Part shown: piece by piece, positions 4,885 to 60,704 of the stretch
Layout of the letters: every line of letters starts with the position of its first letter
Position numbering within the stretch: position 1 is the stretch's first letter
The notes under the pieces: generated by a model
What the model was told of the DNA's origin: nothing
Seen by the model: the letters and a program-made list of their open reading frames with translations, nothing else
The model's database searches: none
Made by a program: the position numbers and the translations under genes
Assembly: GCF_000421105.1 (NCBI RefSeq)
Contig: NZ_ATWF01000002.1
Span: 310,001 to 374,000, forward strand
Length of the DNA: 64,000 nucleotides
Origin: Limisalsivibrio acetivorans
GTDB taxonomy: Bacteria; Chrysiogenota; Deferribacteres; Deferribacterales; Geovibrionaceae
Direction of reading: 5' to 3'

Positions 4885-5274
4885 ATGGCAGGATACAACT
4901 ACGGCACAGGAAGAAGAAAGACTTCAGTGGCCAGGGTCTTCCTCAAGCCCGGTAACGGAAACATCACCATAAATGGTAGAAATGCCGAGAGCTACTTTCA
5001 AAGACCCTCTCTGCTTCAAGTATGTTTCCAGCCCCTCGCCAAGCTTAACGTAGAAAAGAAGTTTGACCTTCTCATAACCGTTAAAGGCGGAGGAAAAGGC
5101 GGACAGGCCGGAGCAATCAGACACGGGCTCGCAAGAGCACTCAGCCAGTTCGACGCAAACTACAGAGGACCCCTCAAAAGAGAAGGCTACCTCACAAGGG
5201 ACGCAAGAGCTGTGGAAAGAAAGAAAGCCGGTCTTCCCAAGGCGAGAAAGTCTCCTCAGTTCTCCAAGCGTTAA
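4885..5274 (+). CDS. rpsI: 30S ribosomal protein S9
   Basis: A 129-residue small-subunit protein whose C-terminal tail reaches the P-site tRNA. It has [17 protein letters not shown] at the start, the [19 protein letters not shown] block and the conserved basic tail ending in SPQFSKR. The ribosome binding site is TAGGAGG, 10 bases before the ATG, and the gene follows rplM by 13 bases. A strong terminator follows, ending the translation cluster. Confidence 0.98.
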
Positions 5275-5302
5275 TTCAGCAAAGTATATCAATTCGTTAT
5301 AC

Positions 5303-5331
5303 AAAAGGGAGCCTTTACGGCTCCCTTTTTT
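5303..5331 (+). terminator. Terminator of rplM-rpsI
   Basis: An 11-bp perfect stem, AAAAGGGAGCC (5303-5313) with GGCTCCCTTTT (5319-5329), is followed by further T residues. It sits about 28 bases after the rpsI stop and marks the left edge of the long gene-free region. Confidence 0.92.
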
Positions 5332-5679
5332 GTCACCGGATGCCCGAAGGTAACTTTTATACGTGAAATGTAATATATTTTTTAATTCGGATATTCTCAT
5401 GTCAGCAATATCTTAGAACGCTCCATAATAGAACAGCTTAGCCTATCTTTTTGTTTTTACCTATTTTCCAAAGGTATATAACTATATAGGTATTCTATTT
5501 ATGAAACTGTGTTCAGGAGTAACTATTCCGTTATCCTATGTTGAAACCATGTGGACAGTTTTGTGCTTTTTATACATAGATCACACTATCTTTGCACATA
5601 ACTCTCCACATATTTACACAATATCAAGGACTTAACAGCTTTTCCAGATTTTATAGTGATCAGCGTGTCAAGCATTATT

Positions 5680-5701
5680 TTATCCACAAGAATGTGGACA
5701 A
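5680..5701. promoter_or_regulatory. Paired DnaA boxes
   Basis: A perfect TTATCCACA on the plus strand (5680-5688) is followed 4 bases later by TGTGGACAA (5693-5701), the complement of TTGTCCACA, one base from consensus. Two inverted boxes this close are unlikely by chance and suggest cooperative DnaA binding. Confidence 0.6.
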
Positions 5702-6671
5702 CTGTGGGAATAAAGGCAATGTAATGGGAAAAATCCCTATTATTTCAAGGTTCCCTTACATTTGATTAATTTTTAATCAGCGCACCGATAATCATTCTTA
5801 TTACTACTTTTATTTAAAACAGCCAGCCATTTTTTCGAGTTTTCATTCATCAGTGAATCGTGGCTTGGGCTTGTTGTAATCAATGATAGTAAGTGAGCGG
5901 TACGTGAGCTAATTTCAGAGCATCCATCACATTCACCAATAACTAGATATGCTGTATATTCATAAAAATCACACGCACCCGCTTCATGACAGTACATCCC
6001 TAACAACACACAAAACTGTAGTCTGCATTAATAACCATCGTATTCGATCGGATCATGATTCCATGCTGTGTTTTGATTCTTATCTATATTCATTGCATAA
6101 TCACTACTACTAACACGATGGACAGAACTAGTAGCAGGGTGTCCGAAAATATCCATACTACTCTGGCCTGTTTCAGGCTTTGATATTGTTCCTTATTGAG
6201 CAGGTATCCGCTCCACAGGAATGCTTTAATGGAGATGACAGTGACATGCACAACTCAGGCGGTCGACGCAACAGCCTCCAACAGCATAGTACATTCCTGA
6301 ATTCCCATGATCCATCACAAATCGCAGCCATTCTGTTCAGCCAAAAACCAATAATCAGGTTTGCACATGTGGATCTTTAGATCGATACCTATATGCAGAA
6401 TAATTTGGCAGCATGAAATGAACAATAGATGCCAATGCGGTTATGCTACCGGATGTATGATTCTACAACCTCGTTTGTAGATAATCGTGTACTTTAAAAA
6501 TCATTATGATAGGCCGTAGCAGGAGTACTCATTTCCACATATTAAGCTGTCCGCATATATGTAAATTTATTTTACACCTTGCCTTACTTTCAGTTGACAT
6601 TCTCAGTTGTAAACAAAAGTTTCGGGGTTCCATATACTTTTGAAAAAGGCTCTAAATATCCTGTTTGCCAC

Positions 6672-6680
6672 TGTGGATAA
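6672..6680 (-). promoter_or_regulatory. Perfect DnaA box
   Basis: TGTGGATAA is the complement of the consensus DnaA box TTATCCACA. It is followed at once by CATGTGGAA, a weaker box-like sequence. Confidence 0.55.
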
Positions 6681-7176
6681 CATGTGGAATTCCCAGGTGC
6701 TGAAATGTAGTGTTTATGGGGATCCGCAGACTATGTCATATTTTAATCATATATATCTGAGTGTTACATAATACCCGCGCTTTAAGGGTATTTGTGGTGT
6801 CAAGCACTTTTTTCTCCACAGAATTGTTGATTACTTGTGTAGTTTCTAGTTTTTCAAGTCATGGATCCTGATTATTTGATGCCTCAGACTACTTGCCTAT
6901 ATTTTAATCACTTATAAGTTATCTGATATTTTTTTAATATTCTCAAATCTGCCATGGGAGAAGCACAGAGGCTATATAGAATAACCTGCTTTTTGCTGGT
7001 TGGGGCATAACAAATACTCGCCGATACAAACTTATCAGCAACAATTATTGCGATATCGAAAAAGGCCGCTCTCTAAGCGACCCTTTGTGTAATGTTATAT
7101 AATCAGAGCCATTGCAACTTTTAGTCACAGATTACGGCAGATAAACAAATATAGCCCTATACTGATCAATCAGACA

Positions 7177-7364
7177 TGAACCGCTCCAGACCAACCCACC
7201 AGGGTAACTGCCACAAACATACATTGCGCCAGCTGTTTAACCCTTTAGCATGCACTGAACCGTTCCAGACCAACCCGCCAGGGTAACTCCCACAAACATA
7301 AACTGAGCCAGCTGTTTAACCCTTTAGCAGACCTGAACCGCACCAGGCCACCCGCCGGGGTTTA
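7177..7364. repeat. 79-bp tandem repeat, 2.4 copies, abutting the CheW-CheZ gene
   Basis: Units begin with TGAACCG at 7177, 7256 and 7334. The first two copies (79 and 78 bp) differ at few positions and share CCAGGGTAACT, CCACAAACATA and CAGCTGTTTAACCCTTTAGCA. The third is cut off after about 30 bases, where the stop codon of the chemotaxis gene lies. The units contain no T-run terminator on either strand. Their role is unknown; they could be a 3' UTR structure of the gene read from the right or a recombination by-product. Confidence 0.85.
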
Positions 7365-9533
7365 GCCTAGACCGAAGTCCATGAGCAGCTTATCAATATC
7401 ATCCTGAGATGTGTCATCACTCAATTCCGCATTTCCAGATTGAGCCTTGATAAGACCAAGTATTGCTCCGATCCTGGCGCCGATATCCTCCACAGAATTG
7501 ATAACCTTGCGGAGCTTTTGCTCTGTGATATCCTGAAACTCGAGGGAGTGAAGTATTCCAAAGCCAAGATCCTCGGCAAGACCTATCTGACTCTCCATAT
7601 AATCGAGCTTCTTTTTAACTGATGTTATATCCTTCTTATAGACAAGATCTTCAAAATCATCCACATCGCCAATAAACTCTGCATAGAAACTGGACATCTT
7701 ATCGGCGGCCTCCATGAGGTTCATGGTTGCCTCTTCGGTGGTCTCGTTTACCTTTTCTAGTGATTCCACAACGACCGGCATGCTTTCCTTTGAGACCATA
7801 ATGGTGGGATCCACTTCGTCCACACGCTCTTTAGTGTCCATTATCAATCGCACAAGTTCGCCCAGCTCACCTTTTATATCAACACCAAGGTCAACGGCAT
7901 CCCCGTTTATTATCTTTTGGGTAAGATCACGCAAGTCATCTATGGAGTCGGTTTCAACGAAGAAGCCGTTTTGGTCTTTCTTTTCTTCTTCGGGAGTATC
8001 CTCAAAGGCGGCCTCGGCGGCCTCCTCCTCTGCAATATCTTCCGCAGATTCAGGTTCAGATTCGGAATCACCATTCTCGATTTCATCAAGAAGAACACCT
8101 AGATCATCGTCCATGACAGCGTCCGTATCTATACCGCCTGAATCATCAGTCCCTTCATCAAGTCCGATCTCTTCGGCCATCTCGGCCTCGGCTCTGGCCT
8201 CTTCCTCGTCTATTAACTGCTGTTTGGTTTTTTCTTCATCGGATGTGTCTTCTTCAAAGGTGGAGGTATCGGGCTCATCTTCCAACTGAGCGGCCATCTC
8301 GGCCTCGGCTCTGGCCTCTTCCTCGTCTATTAACTGCTGTTTGGTTTTTTCTTCGTCGGATGTGTCTTCTTCAAAGGTGGAGGTATCGGAATCATCTTCC
8401 AACTGAGCGGCCATCTCGGCCTCGGCTCTGGCCTCTTCCTCTTCAATCTTCTGCTGTTTTTCCTTGCCGGAAACGGTACAATAATCAGGTTGAATGACGG
8501 CATCGTCAAGGTCAGATTCGTCTTCAGTGGGCTCTTCCTGTTCAGCTTCCCCTAATTCTTCATTTTTTTTTTCAGCCTTTTTACGCTCGAGCATCTCTTC
8601 GGTTTCCTTTTCCCTCTTTTCAAGCTCTTTGGCTATGAGAGCGTCAAGGTCATCCTGCTCTACGTAATTGGCTTCATCACCGTTTCCAATCGTTTGGCTG
8701 AGTGCGTCTTCGAGAACTGCGTTCACCTCGTCGTCCGCATCTCCCTCAGCCTGATGAGATGCGGGCTCATCCTTTTTTCGTTCAAGCATCTCCTCGGTTT
8801 CTTTTTCCCGCTTTGCAAGCTCCTGGGCTATGAGGGCATCGATATCATCACCAACACCGTCATCAGCTCCCCCACTATCGGGCTCGGGTTCAGAAGAGGG
8901 TTCCGGTTCCGGCTCTTCTATGGCCTTTGGCTCATCCTCTTGAGGTGCTTCGCTTTCAACGCTCTTAGCAACCTCCTCATAGTTTACCTTAGGCTTTTCT
9001 TCAAGGGCGGGCTGGGAGAAGAATCTTCTTCTGAGGTCGCTGTCGACTGTTTTACCGTCGGCGATAACACTATCGATATCCAGAAGAATTATGAGTCGTT
9101 CCTCATATTTGCAGATTCCAAGGATATATTCCTGACCGATGGAGCCCACAAGGGGGGGCGTAGGCTCTACCATGCTTTTGTTGATTCTGATTACTTCGGT
9201 AACTTCGTCTACCACAAAACCGATGTTTTCGCTTTCGAAGCGGACAACGATGATCCTCGTTTCCTTGTCGAAATCCATTTTGTCGAGGGCAAAACGTACA
9301 CGGAGGTCGATAACGGGGATAACCTTGCCTCTCAGGTTCATAACACCGAGAACAAAGGAGTCTGTTCGGGGAACAGCTGTTATCTCCACAGGCCTGATGA
9401 TCTCCTGAATCTTGAGAACATCGATTGCATATTCCTCTTCGCCGAGCTTAAGCCCGACTAGCTGTATAATCTCTCCTTCGTCTATGGAGTCATCATAGTC
9501 AAGAGAAGGGTTAACAGGCTGCATATTGTCCAT
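7362..9533 (-). CDS. CheW-CheZ fusion protein with long acidic repeat linker
   Basis: A 723-residue chemotaxis protein. Residues about 20-165 are a CheW coupling domain (VGLKLGEEEYAIDV, GVMNLRGKVIPVIDLR). Residues about 185-530 are a highly acidic, low-complexity linker with two 26-residue units (DALIA.EL.KREKETEEMLERKK) and nearly three 39-residue units (IDEEEARAEAEMAAQLED and following). Residues about 540-723 resemble the CheZ phosphatase: long helices, the catalytic motif FQDITEQ (Asp668, Gln672; compare FQDLTGQ in E. coli CheZ) and a C-terminal SQDDIDKLLMDFG tail like the CheY-binding peptide of CheZ. It would place CheY-P phosphatase activity at receptor arrays. Start ATG has AAGGGGTG upstream. 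It follows the FlhG-like gene by 10 bases. Confidence 0.88.
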   Translation of the reverse strand: MDNMQPVNPSLDYDDSIDEGEIIQLVGLKLGEEEYAIDVLKIQEIIRPVEITAVPRTDSFVLGVMNLRGKVIPVIDLRVRFALDKMDFDKETRIIVVRFESENIGFVVDEVTEVIRINKSMVEPTPPLVGSIGQEYILGICKYEERLIILLDIDSVIADGKTVDSDLRRRFFSQPALEEKPKVNYEEVAKSVESEAPQEDEPKAIEEPEPEPSSEPEPDSGGADDGVGDDIDALIAQELAKREKETEEMLERKKDEPASHQAEGDADDEVNAVLEDALSQTIGNGDEANYVEQDDLDALIAKELEKREKETEEMLERKKAEKKNEELGEAEQEEPTEDESDLDDAVIQPDYCTVSGKEKQQKIEEEEARAEAEMAAQLEDDSDTSTFEEDTSDEEKTKQQLIDEEEARAEAEMAAQLEDEPDTSTFEEDTSDEEKTKQQLIDEEEARAEAEMAEEIGLDEGTDDSGGIDTDAVMDDDLGVLLDEIENGDSESEPESAEDIAEEEAAEAAFEDTPEEEKKDQNGFFVETDSIDDLRDLTQKIINGDAVDLGVDIKGELGELVRLIMDTKERVDEVDPTIMVSKESMPVVVESLEKVNETTEEATMNLMEAADKMSSFYAEFIGDVDDFEDLVYKKDITSVKKKLDYMESQIGLAEDLGFGILHSLEFQDITEQKLRKVINSVEDIGARIGAILGLIKAQSGNAELSDDTSQDDIDKLLMDFGLG
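8175..8480 (-). repeat. 117-bp in-frame tandem repeats inside the CheW-CheZ gene
   Basis: Copies starting with GGCCATCTCGGCCTCGGCTC on the plus strand occur at 8175, 8292 and 8409, a period of 117 bases or 39 codons. The first copies are almost identical over long stretches, including synonymous positions, so expansion is recent or kept uniform by recombination. Loss or gain of a unit would stay in frame and change only linker length. Confidence 0.88.
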
Positions 9534-15357: not shown

Positions 15358-16497
15358 TTAATCCTCCCCGTTGTGAAGACTTTCGTTAATCAAAGGTATG
15401 CCAAACCTCCTGCCAATCTCTTCAATATCCACAGGAACACCAAGTTTTATGGCATCGCTCACCACCTCCCATTCGGCGGAGCTTCCCCATTCGAAACTGA
15501 AAACAGGAACAGGAACACCTTTGCCGGCATTCAGCTCTGTAATCCATCTTATGAGTGTTGAGTTAAGTGTATCCGCAAGGGATACAGCAAGCTTCTCCGC
15601 CCTGGAGTGATATGTCTTTGAATGCTCCCTAGCTAGAGCCCATGAACCACCGGCTGAAGTGTCACTGGTAAGAATCTCTCCGGTAACCGCTTTTGATATT
15701 TCTGCATTGCAAAGATTGATCAGTTCGGAGAAATCAGCGGATGTCCCCCTGCTTTCAAGCACCTCAACCTTGTCCACATTTGCCATGGCGAGTGCCGCAT
15801 CGTTTTGTATGCCGCTTAAAGATTCCGCAAGGGATGCCGCCCTTCTTCTTGCATCCTCATCGTCTATGCTGTCAAAGAGTGCCAGAACAGTGGGGACACC
15901 GTACTTCTCCGCCGCAGTAAGCCAGAAGCGGAAACCCGCCTTCTTAAACATCCAAGGCCAGTAGCATTTTGAAAGGATGGGGGAACCGTAGGGGTTCTCC
16001 CCCCTTGGCGAATGCCTGTGGACTATCACCTTATACTCCTCATCAATAACACTGCTCCCGGAGGCTCCGTCCATGAGCAGACCGCCTTCGGAATTGAATC
16101 CAAAACGCTCCTGCTTCCTGCCGAGAAGCTTCTCCGGTAGCATCAGTCCCCCTTCCCTCTTCCAGACTATCTCGGTTACGGAGAAACCATACTCCACAGC
16201 GCTGAGGATCTCCTCAAGATCACCACGAAAACCGTTTATACCTTCAACGGCCCTTCGAACCATCTCCGCAGTGCGCACAGCATCGTTACCCTGATCCGCC
16301 GGGGCAATACTCCACCCCCCTGAAAGCACCCCCTCTTTGAGTTGCTCCACCTTCGCTGAGATATGAGCATCGTTCATCATCTGGGCAAAGGTCTCCATTC
16401 GGACACCCCCCGAAAGAACCGTATCCGGATTGGGCATATATCCGAGAACGCTTCCTATCCCTGCCGGTCCTGTAACTGCTGTTGTCAGCTTTTTCAT
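15358..16497 (-). CDS. Phage portal-like protein, DUF935 (Mu gp29) family
   Basis: A 379-residue protein like the DUF935 portal proteins of Mu-like phages, recognised by MNDAHISAKVEQLKEGVLSG, HRHSPRGENPYGSPILSKCY, WPWMFKKAGFRFWL and AAEKYGVPTVLALFD. Portals form the dodecameric ring through which DNA enters the head. It is somewhat shorter than the usual family length (about 450-520, from memory). It directly follows the large terminase (11 bases). No protease, capsid, tail or lysis gene follows, so it belongs to an incomplete packaging module. Confidence 0.82.
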   Translation of the reverse strand: MKKLTTAVTGPAGIGSVLGYMPNPDTVLSGGVRMETFAQMMNDAHISAKVEQLKEGVLSGGWSIAPADQGNDAVRTAEMVRRAVEGINGFRGDLEEILSAVEYGFSVTEIVWKREGGLMLPEKLLGRKQERFGFNSEGGLLMDGASGSSVIDEEYKVIVHRHSPRGENPYGSPILSKCYWPWMFKKAGFRFWLTAAEKYGVPTVLALFDSIDDEDARRRAASLAESLSGIQNDAALAMANVDKVEVLESRGTSADFSELINLCNAEISKAVTGEILTSDTSAGGSWALAREHSKTYHSRAEKLAVSLADTLNSTLIRWITELNAGKGVPVPVFSFEWGSSAEWEVVSDAIKLGVPVDIEEIGRRFGIPLINESLHNGED

Positions 16498-58508: not shown

Positions 58509-60704
58509 ATGGACGAAGAGAAGATATACCCCATCTACTACATACCCTACAGGGATGAATTCTGTACCCCTCTGCCCAGGAGGGGGAGAGGGGGAAAAAC
58601 CAGAGCTTTGAACAAAAGGATATCAAGGGAAACTCTATCTGAGAAAGTTGAAAAAGGTTATCATTATTATCGATCATTTAAATTCAACAGAGGCCTCCCC
58701 GTGGTGGAGCAGATCCTGCTGGAAAAGGGTTCTGAGGCCAAGTCACTCCGTCAGTCCTTCCTGAAAACCACAAAGGCCCGCCTTGTGGGGAGTGCAGGGC
58801 TTCGAAGGATACTCTTCTCCGTCGAGGATGAAGCACACCTAGGAAGGATCGCCTCCATGATACGCTACAGCAGAAACACCGACTTTTATTCATCTCTAAC
58901 CCATTTCGAGGACATCGGCGGTTTCATGCCCGAAGACAAGAGGGAGCTTTCATCACTCTTTTTGCACAGGCTCCATAACGCTCAAAGAGGGGATGATGAA
59001 CTTATAAAGATCATATGCTTCAGCATCTCCGGTGCGGAGGAGAAAACGGCGGACTTCCTTGCCGGGGAAATCGGTGCGGAAGATGTCCGGCTGAACTGCC
59101 TGGGGAGCGGTATCAAAAGCATATACTGCCGGGTCCCTAGCTTGAGGGATAAGCTTGATGTTATCCTGAGCCATTCCCTGATTAGGAACATAGCGGAACA
59201 GGAGCAGACAACACTCACCCCTCAATATCTCAGACGGGAAGAGATCCCAGTGGAATGCATAGTAAAGCGGGAGAAGGGGAAGACATACCCTGTGGTCGGG
59301 GTGTTCGATACAGGTGTCGCCCCAGGCTCCTACCTCCGGGAATGGGAATACGCATCCCACAGCTTTGTGGAATGCGGCATGGAGAACAACATGCACGGAA
59401 CCTTCGTTACGGGGAGGCTTCTACAGAAGGGTGAAAACTTCGGCGGTATAATGTATCTGGATATCAACTGCATACCGGATACCTCAAGGCGAAGGGTATG
59501 TTTCAGTGATGTGGCTCCGTATATTGAGTGCATGGTAATGAAATACAACGATAGAGTTAAGTTCTGGAACCTGTCCATGGGAACAGATGAACCGGGTGGC
59601 AGAAACATAAGCGAGTGTGCAGCGTTCATTGATCACCTGCAGTATAAGTACGATGTGGTATTCATAATACCGACCGGCAACTACCATAAACTCCGCAGCT
59701 GGGATATGGAAGAGCTGAAGGACGAGAACAGGTTAACCCCGCCTGCAGACAGCCTGCACGGGATCACTGTGGGGAGTATCACCCAGGAATCGACAAATAT
59801 ACTTCCGGCACTTTATCCCTCCCTCTTTACCCGAAGGGGGAGAGGAGCCTGCATGGCTGTTAAGCCGGATCTTGTTTACTACGGAGGAACCCACGAGATG
59901 CGCTTCGGGAGGTATCTTCCGAGAGGAGTGCACTCCATTGGTATCAACAACGAAATAGCCGAAGATACAGGAACATCGCATGCATCACCGCCTGTGGCGG
60001 CAGCTGCCGCAGAACTTTATCACACCCTCCTCTTCGCCGGCATGAACACGGACATGGTCAAAGCACTCCTGCTCCACAGGGCTGAGTACCCGTCCGGGGA
60101 GGATCAGGATTCTTGTACAGAGGCCACACGCTCATATTACGGCTGGGGTATACCAACCTTCGGCGACAGTCTCCTCTGCGAAGGAGGGGATACGCTCACA
60201 TTTATTACCTGCGGCAGACTCAAGACGGGGTGCATTATGGAAGTAGGCTCCATTACCGTCCCACCCGAACTGCTTGAAAACGGTAAACTTAGCGGGAGGA
60301 TAGATATGACCCTCTCGTCAAAGGTTCCAGTAAACCCCGAATTCCCCGATTTCTACACCTGCATAAACCTCGAAGCATCACTCGGGTTTTATGAAAAAGG
60401 GAACTGGAGGAGCATACTCTCAGGCAAAGATATCTCCGGTATGCCCGATGATGAAGCCCTCAGGGAGGTTTATAAATGGCTACCCACGAAAAAATACACC
60501 CAGAGCTTTAAAAAAAAGAAGTGTCCAGGTATACTTATTCTGAGACTAAGCACTTCACGGAGGGATTTCCACGAAGGGGATAACGAAATACCGTACGGTG
60601 TTGCCATAAGCTTCAGAGGGCATGGGAAAAACATACACAGCAGAGTATGCTCTGAGAACACGGTTTCATCCTTTACTTTTGAAAAGACTGCCGGTAATTA
60701 TTGA
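58509..60704 (+). CDS. Subtilisin-like (S8) serine peptidase with unusual N-terminal region
   Basis: 731 residues. The catalytic triad is clear: Asp267 in VVGVFDTGV, His296 in MHGTFVTG and Ser490 in GTSHASPP, with oxyanion Asn391 in PTGNY. There is no signal peptide or propeptide of the secreted type, so it probably acts inside the cell. Residues 1-260 form a domain I do not recognise (GLPVVEQILLEKG, SAGLRRILFSVEDEAHL), and about 560-731 form a beta-rich C terminus. Layout and lack of a signal are like S8 proteases paired with AAA ATPases in phage-defence pairs such as IetAS, but no AAA gene is adjacent. It is preceded by XRE. Confidence 0.87.
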   Translation: MDEEKIYPIYYIPYRDEFCTPLPRRGRGGKTRALNKRISRETLSEKVEKGYHYYRSFKFNRGLPVVEQILLEKGSEAKSLRQSFLKTTKARLVGSAGLRRILFSVEDEAHLGRIASMIRYSRNTDFYSSLTHFEDIGGFMPEDKRELSSLFLHRLHNAQRGDDELIKIICFSISGAEEKTADFLAGEIGAEDVRLNCLGSGIKSIYCRVPSLRDKLDVILSHSLIRNIAEQEQTTLTPQYLRREEIPVECIVKREKGKTYPVVGVFDTGVAPGSYLREWEYASHSFVECGMENNMHGTFVTGRLLQKGENFGGIMYLDINCIPDTSRRRVCFSDVAPYIECMVMKYNDRVKFWNLSMGTDEPGGRNISECAAFIDHLQYKYDVVFIIPTGNYHKLRSWDMEELKDENRLTPPADSLHGITVGSITQESTNILPALYPSLFTRRGRGACMAVKPDLVYYGGTHEMRFGRYLPRGVHSIGINNEIAEDTGTSHASPPVAAAAAELYHTLLFAGMNTDMVKALLLHRAEYPSGEDQDSCTEATRSYYGWGIPTFGDSLLCEGGDTLTFITCGRLKTGCIMEVGSITVPPELLENGKLSGRIDMTLSSKVPVNPEFPDFYTCINLEASLGFYEKGNWRSILSGKDISGMPDDEALREVYKWLPTKKYTQSFKKKKCPGILILRLSTSRRDFHEGDNEIPYGVAISFRGHGKNIHSRVCSENTVSSFTFEKTAGNY

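Follow-up and report, generated by a model that had tools for sequence, protein, structure and literature searches.

A conserved, rigidly spaced DNA module away from the replication origin in Limisalsivibrio acetivorans and its relatives: a probable DnaA-control element

Most of what is known about locus-specific DNA elements that control DnaA comes from Escherichia coli and a few model bacteria. The literature that we found on such DnaA-control elements, as far as its accessible text goes, concerns mainly E. coli. In E. coli MG1655 we measured the cores of DARS1 and DARS2, which both consist of box I, 5 bp, an inverted box II, 3 bp, and a box III oriented as box II. The available excerpt of PMC5742627 gives the two elements the same spacing and an opposite box I. 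The module described here is also like datA of E. coli and the box clusters of Bacillus and Streptomyces, which are non-origin DnaA-box clusters thought, according to that excerpt, to restrain initiation (PMC5742627). Our searches of PMC covered DARS and datA, DnaA-box clusters and replication in Deferribacteres, with subscription journals outside their scope, and in the text accessible there we found no description of an element of this kind.

A module of three spaced blocks in a gene-free stretch

The window analysed is a stretch of 64,000 nucleotides (C2:310001-374000) of the 2.97-Mb, three-contig genome of L. acetivorans, phylum Deferribacterota (G000 among the genomes compared). A sequence-only reading had pointed to an AT-rich, gene-free region with two perfect and two single-mismatch DnaA boxes, a density held to be far above chance. 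Between rpsI and the CheW gene (5275-7361) there are indeed only ORFs of 78 and 66 amino acids, neither with a Pfam match, and the GC content is 0.42-0.44 (2-kb bins), compared to 0.45-0.55 elsewhere in the window. Both exact boxes are real (TTATCCACA at 5680-5688 on the plus strand and at 6672-6680 on the minus strand), and the single-mismatch boxes number three rather than two (5693 and 6476 on the minus strand, 6812 on the plus strand). Among these five boxes the only close pair is 5680/5693. The claim of a density far above chance fails for the exact boxes alone. There are 77 perfect boxes in the whole genome, at which frequency 1.97 pairs within 1 kb are expected; two are seen, so that counting exact boxes provides no evidence. 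The box TTNTCCACA is also common, with 347 sites genome-wide compared to 86 for the reversed pattern. In the sampled part of the genome, the stretch ranks first of 1333 overlapping 1.8-kb windows on two counts: it has 11 TCCACA cores, where the mean is 1.8, and four TTNTCCACA sites, where the mean is 0.23. The importance of the region is established by comparison between genomes, not by box count, and the conserved unit is larger than the boxes previously noticed.

BLASTN of the gap against 59 genomes, our own included, matched a core of 30-70 bp in relatives. Profile R1, built from an alignment of 15 such cores, recovers copies in all 12 genomes of the own family and in other families. R1 covers block B only, and blocks A and C were revealed by reading outward from its matches. 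Because R1 spans block B alone, the two outer blocks confirm the R1-found modules independently. The alignment used below (A2) comprises 39 modules, of which a few from families f4, f6 and f7 entered via the block-A pattern. The window contains this module of about 240 bases twice, at 5539-5780 and at 6672-6911 (Table 1).

Table 1. Coordinates of the two module copies and of the flanking genes in the window; offsets are from the TGTCAAG anchor.
Feature	Position	Strand	Remarks
rpsI	4885-5274	+	Adjoins modules in this genome and genus g2 only
Copy 1, block A	5539-5558	-	Tandem DnaA-type boxes with a 2-bp gap: TGTTGAAAC 5539-5547 and TGTGGACAG 5550-5558 (as read on +); offset -127
Copy 1, block B	5666-5711	+	TGTCAAG 5666-5672, T-run, then box I TTATCCACA 5680-5688 (exact)
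Copy 1, block B, boxes II and III	5693-5701, 5703-5711		Box II on the other strand, 4 bp after box I; box III weak; II-III gap 1 bp, not 2
Copy 1, block C	5763-5780		Near-palindrome TGATTAATTTTTAATCAG; offset +97
Copy 2, block A	6672-6691	-	Tandem boxes with a 2-bp gap: TTATCCACA (exact) 6672-6680 and second box 6683-6691; offset -126
Copy 2, block B	6798-6844	+	TGTCAAG 6798-6804, T-run, box I TTCTCCACA 6812-6820
Copy 2, block B, boxes II and III	6825-6833, 6836-6844		Gaps of 4 bp (I-II) and 2 bp (II-III)
Copy 2, block C	6894-6911		TGCCTATATTTTAATCAC; offset +96
CheW-domain gene with CheZ-like C-terminus	7362-9533	-	

Block A consists of two TGT(G/T)GA boxes 11 bp apart and lies -124 to -128 bp from the TGTCAAG anchor in all 39 aligned modules. 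Block B begins with TGTCAAG and a T-run, which are followed by boxes; in the own family these are an inverted box pair and a third box. Block C, which approximates TGNNTATTTTTTAANCA, is a near-palindrome 85-98 bp past the anchor. Its offsets form two classes about 10 bp, or about one helical turn, apart: +95 to +98 (n=30) and +85 to +87 (n=9). Eight members of the smaller class are second copies of genera g3 and g4, and the ninth is from G014. Two such classes are what a helically phased protein-DNA assembly would allow. Between families, the identity of blocks A, B and C is 0.82, 0.69 and 0.67, respectively, and that of the spacers 0.34 and 0.32, with 0.29 expected by chance; the spacing is fixed, though the spacers are nearly random in sequence.

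A three-block matrix trained on 15 own-family copies gives all 39 modules 35-121 bits, compared to 8.8 for the highest-scoring other site on either strand of 2.4 Mb. The tandem pattern TTTNTCMACANNTTNTCMACA occurs at 19 sites in 31 genomes, 18 of them inside modules, and its reversed control at none. TTTNTCCACANNNNTGTGGA is not exclusive to modules: by our own grouping it has 16 sites in 11 of 59 genomes, five of which lie outside modules. A recognisable box I (TCCACA or TCAACA) is present in 28 of the 39 modules and in none of the ten aligned from f4, f6 and f7, where it is lost or degenerate, so that the DARS-like core does not extend to the whole order. Boxes II and III could be made out as a tandem in 34 of 39. 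Invariant across the order are the block-A tandem, TGTCAAG with its T-run, usually the II-III tandem, and block C.

Distribution, copy number and neighbouring genes

Profile R2 (255 positions) was searched in 50 genomes of the phylum and has matches in 43 of them at E<=0.01 and in 38 at E<=1e-5; among the latter, 24 have sequences in the training alignment and 14 do not. Weaker matches only were obtained in G027, G033, G034, G040 and G045. At 0.01, R2 has no match in both f5 genomes, all three f10 genomes, G026 and G038. This distribution, as traced by profile matches, indicates that the module is spread across the whole bacterial order. Two copies at E<=1e-5 are found in 24 of the 50 genomes and three in none. 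The own family has two copies in 12 of 12 genomes, which are close relatives, so that these counts are not independent. The copies are separated by 0.4-1.1 kb in this genome and genus g2, by 20-26 kb in those g3 and g4 genomes in which a single contig carries the pair, by 9-20 kb in several genomes of f6, by 124 kb in G012 and by 534 kb in G023.

One module lies 3' of the CheW-CheZ-like gene in 11 of 12 own-family genomes, the exception being G008, in which the modules are either on another contig than CheW or 20 kb away from it. The same CheW-side position is also seen in two members of a second family, G012 and G031. The product of this gene is one protein with a CheW domain, a long acidic linker and a C-terminus that we take to be CheZ-like from its motif. 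Since the orientation of the module relative to the CheW gene varies between genera, and modules of other families have other neighbours, the module hardly serves the CheW gene. Two 74-nt direct repeats, 92% identical and 79 bp apart, lie at 7177-7329 between module copy 2 and the CheW gene. Reading the minus-strand CTTGACA as a promoter element was rejected, as by eye there is no conserved -10 at 17 bp. A polar fork trap was likewise dismissed: the two copies lie on opposite strands in G012, G023 and G041, which implies no fixed polarity.

Elsewhere in the window, 15358-16497 and 58509-60704 encode a Mu-type portal protein and a phage-type S8 peptidase (phrog_3964). In G005, the interval bounded by the two modules contains related phage genes (capsid E, S8 peptidase), which have homologues in the same place in G003 and G006. 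The Mu-like cluster kept across the family is possibly a gene transfer agent.

Position of the modules relative to the replication origin

Genomes of the own family have dnaA and dnaN at separate places, and the GC-skew switch goes with dnaN (C1:1973483 in this genome, and in relatives). In this genome dnaA lies on C1 at 2.294 Mb and dnaN on C1 at 1.973 Mb. The sign of its sampled skew changes from minus to plus at 1.90-2.00 Mb of C1, where dnaN lies, in samples that are noisy (weakly positive at 1.80 Mb, near zero at 2.10 Mb). The switch is at dnaN in three complete relatives as well: at 3.056 Mb in G003, whose skew is noisy between 2.6 and 3.05 Mb; at 0.157 Mb in G004, between samples at 0.05 and 0.20 Mb; and at 3 kb in G012, where the skew is negative at the chromosome end and strongly positive after about 4 kb. 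In most of 15 genomes the stretch upstream of dnaN has TTGTCAACA or TTTTC(C/A)ACA boxes and a TTATTATTACTAC-like run before the gene. Its box and trio-like layout is near the published scheme of box, spacer and DnaA-trios (available excerpt of PMC8287927), and we take this stretch, which lies at the skew switch and looks like oriC by its sequence, as the oriC candidate.

The oriC candidate and the module, which belong to the same order, are alike in box type, in being AT-rich and in being non-coding. They differ in that neither a tandem pair of the searched form nor block B was found in the candidate, which carries a TTGTCAACA box together with a TTATTATTACTAC run and sits at the skew switch. 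In G012, no dense box cluster was found in 260 of the first 280 kb. Inverted box pairs also occur at other places. One, TTTTTCCACAGCCATGTGGA, is conserved in three genomes of genus g3 (G002:C3:294150, G005:C11:271074 and G011:C14:89983) and lies about 24.5 kb from dnaN in G002 and G005; another, in family f7 (G030:C39:25841-25864), is outside modules and 11 kb from rpsI.

The skew around the modules is uniform, and their distance from dnaN amounts to 16.3-22.0% of the genome in G003, G004 and G012, the three complete genomes on which this figure rests; in this genome it is 22.7 or 24.4%, depending on how the contigs are joined. The first alternative of the sequence-only reading, namely that the stretch is the chromosomal origin apart from dnaA, can draw on the strong conserved box cluster here and on dnaA itself, beside which no DnaA-box array was found in the own-family stretches read. 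We nevertheless give it next to no credence. No sign change of the skew is seen at the modules, be it at 2.38 Mb in G003 (negative arm), at 2.62 Mb in G004, at 1.69 and 1.81 Mb in G012 or at 1.15 Mb in G017 (positive arm), and in G017, where dnaN was not located, the module is also away from the skew switch. The stretch upstream of dnaN, by contrast, combines a box with a run like the DnaA-trios of the PMC8287927 excerpt; by eye no trio-like run was seen in the module alignment, in which boxes are present. Moreover, the flanking genes converge on the module, an argument against an origin that the sequence-only reading had itself raised and that holds. Thus, the skew in this genome and four relatives, together with the position of dnaN in four of these five, excludes the origin reading of the modules.

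A probable role in DnaA control

The DnaA of this genome carries the motif GGRDHSTVLH, which presumably takes part in DnaA box binding. Own-family boxes are mostly TTNTCCACA or TTNTCAACA, while the f2 boxes read TTTTCAACA at nearly every position and differ at position 6 from TTWTNCACA, the consensus in E. coli. The oriC candidate upstream of dnaN has the same C/A-degenerate boxes as the modules (TTTTCCACA, TTTTCAACA, TTGTCAACA), and this shared degeneracy suggests that one protein may read both. The 2-bp gap of the block-A tandem is one of the two gaps, 2 or 3 bp, at which E. coli DnaA prefers box pairs (PMC11317965, available excerpt). We infer that DnaA is the ligand of the module boxes. 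Some boxes are no better conserved than TGTCAAG, the T-run and block C, and a second ligand therefore seems required. Block C fits GnnYAnnnnnTRnnC, the Fis consensus as quoted in the accessible part of PMC8682772, in 27 of 39 modules compared to 0.12 expected in block shuffles, in a set whose rows are related and a block that was picked for its conservation.

These same features could be taken to mean that the module forms a nucleoprotein complex not with DnaA but with another protein, such as one that organises or segregates the chromosome and reads TGT(G/T)GA repeats. TGTCAAG with its T-run and block C are not DnaA boxes, the f2 boxes are non-canonical and the distance from the origin is roughly constant. 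We regard this as rather unlikely, since the own-family boxes match the TTATCCACA type, the oriC candidate shows the same C/A degeneracy and a 2-bp tandem gap is one that DnaA favours. Some genus-g3 copies, in which a hairpin (GCTTGACA...TGTCAAGC) is followed by a T-run, would suggest a structured RNA transcript or else a terminator or 3' UTR belonging to the genes alongside. RNAalifold, however, predicts no pairs on the 39 modules, the module has no Rfam match (the scan of the window returned a tRNA only), its orientation towards the CheW gene is variable, and its spacers are fixed in length but free in sequence, all of which makes a role as RNA highly improbable. That the module is part of a mobile element, a Mu-like prophage or its relic, is equally hard to believe. 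It is true that phage genes lie between the two copies in g3 and g4, where copy b abuts the phage-type S8 peptidase gene, and that phage genes are also present within this window. Yet the block-B pattern has no match in IMG/VR viral contigs, a module from this window has none in plasmids and one from G005 none in phage records, the modules inspected in f2, f6 and f7 sit among genes read as cellular, and free spacers at fixed spacing are unlike a recent copy.

We consider it fairly probable that the module is a non-coding chromosomal DnaA-control element, present here in two adjacent copies, like DARS or datA of E. coli. Like DARS1 and DARS2, it is non-coding, lies away from oriC and is found twice per genome; it has, in most own-family cores and in f2, a three-box core with box I opposite to boxes II and III, and it has further sites at a set distance, as DARS has sites at optimised spacing in the excerpt of PMC5742627. 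DARS2 lies 20.6% of the genome from oriC, and the modules 16-22% from dnaN in the complete relatives. The differences concern the gaps, which are 4 and 2 bp in most own-family cores (I, 4 bp, II, 2 bp, III) compared to 5 and 3 bp in DARS, the extra tandem pair 124-128 bp upstream and the conserved TGTCAAG/T-run. Module copies, moreover, are often adjacent or within 26 kb of each other and differ in orientation, and box I is lost in several families. Because the gaps differ, we do not claim that the module is a DARS, and its DARS-like activity is a prediction; that it works like a DARS or datA site is plausible by analogy. To our knowledge, the short inverted-plus-tandem core with its fixed spacings of about 126 and 97 bp has no counterpart in the datA, Bacillus and Streptomyces clusters.

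In such a DnaA-control element, DnaA would bind to the tandem pair in block A and to the box cluster in block B, with the intervening DNA bent or looped so that DnaA protomers form one assembly. Further proteins at TGTCAAG/T-run and block C may assist this assembly. The element would then change or sequester DnaA away from oriC and thereby help to set the timing of initiation, as DARS or datA does. As to the direction of this effect, we lean slightly towards reactivation as at DARS, rather than titration or inactivation, on account of the DARS topology of the own-family core; both the looped complex and this direction are what we infer. The second alternative of the sequence-only reading, a DnaA-binding control or titration site, is accordingly the one that the comparative evidence favours, with DnaA as the putative ligand.

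We tentatively suggest, as a possibility that falls somewhat short of a probable one, that a phylum outside Proteobacteria may possess its own conserved, two-copy DNA machine for the regulation of DnaA, rigid in its spacing, composed of two box clusters to which a bending factor is bound, and kept at much the same distance from the origin. This would be a second DARS-type lineage, either independent or ancestral. An order-wide element in another phylum, with exact and mutable spacing and with a mapped oriC candidate in the same genomes, would allow asking whether locus-specific control of DnaA is ancient or has arisen more than once.
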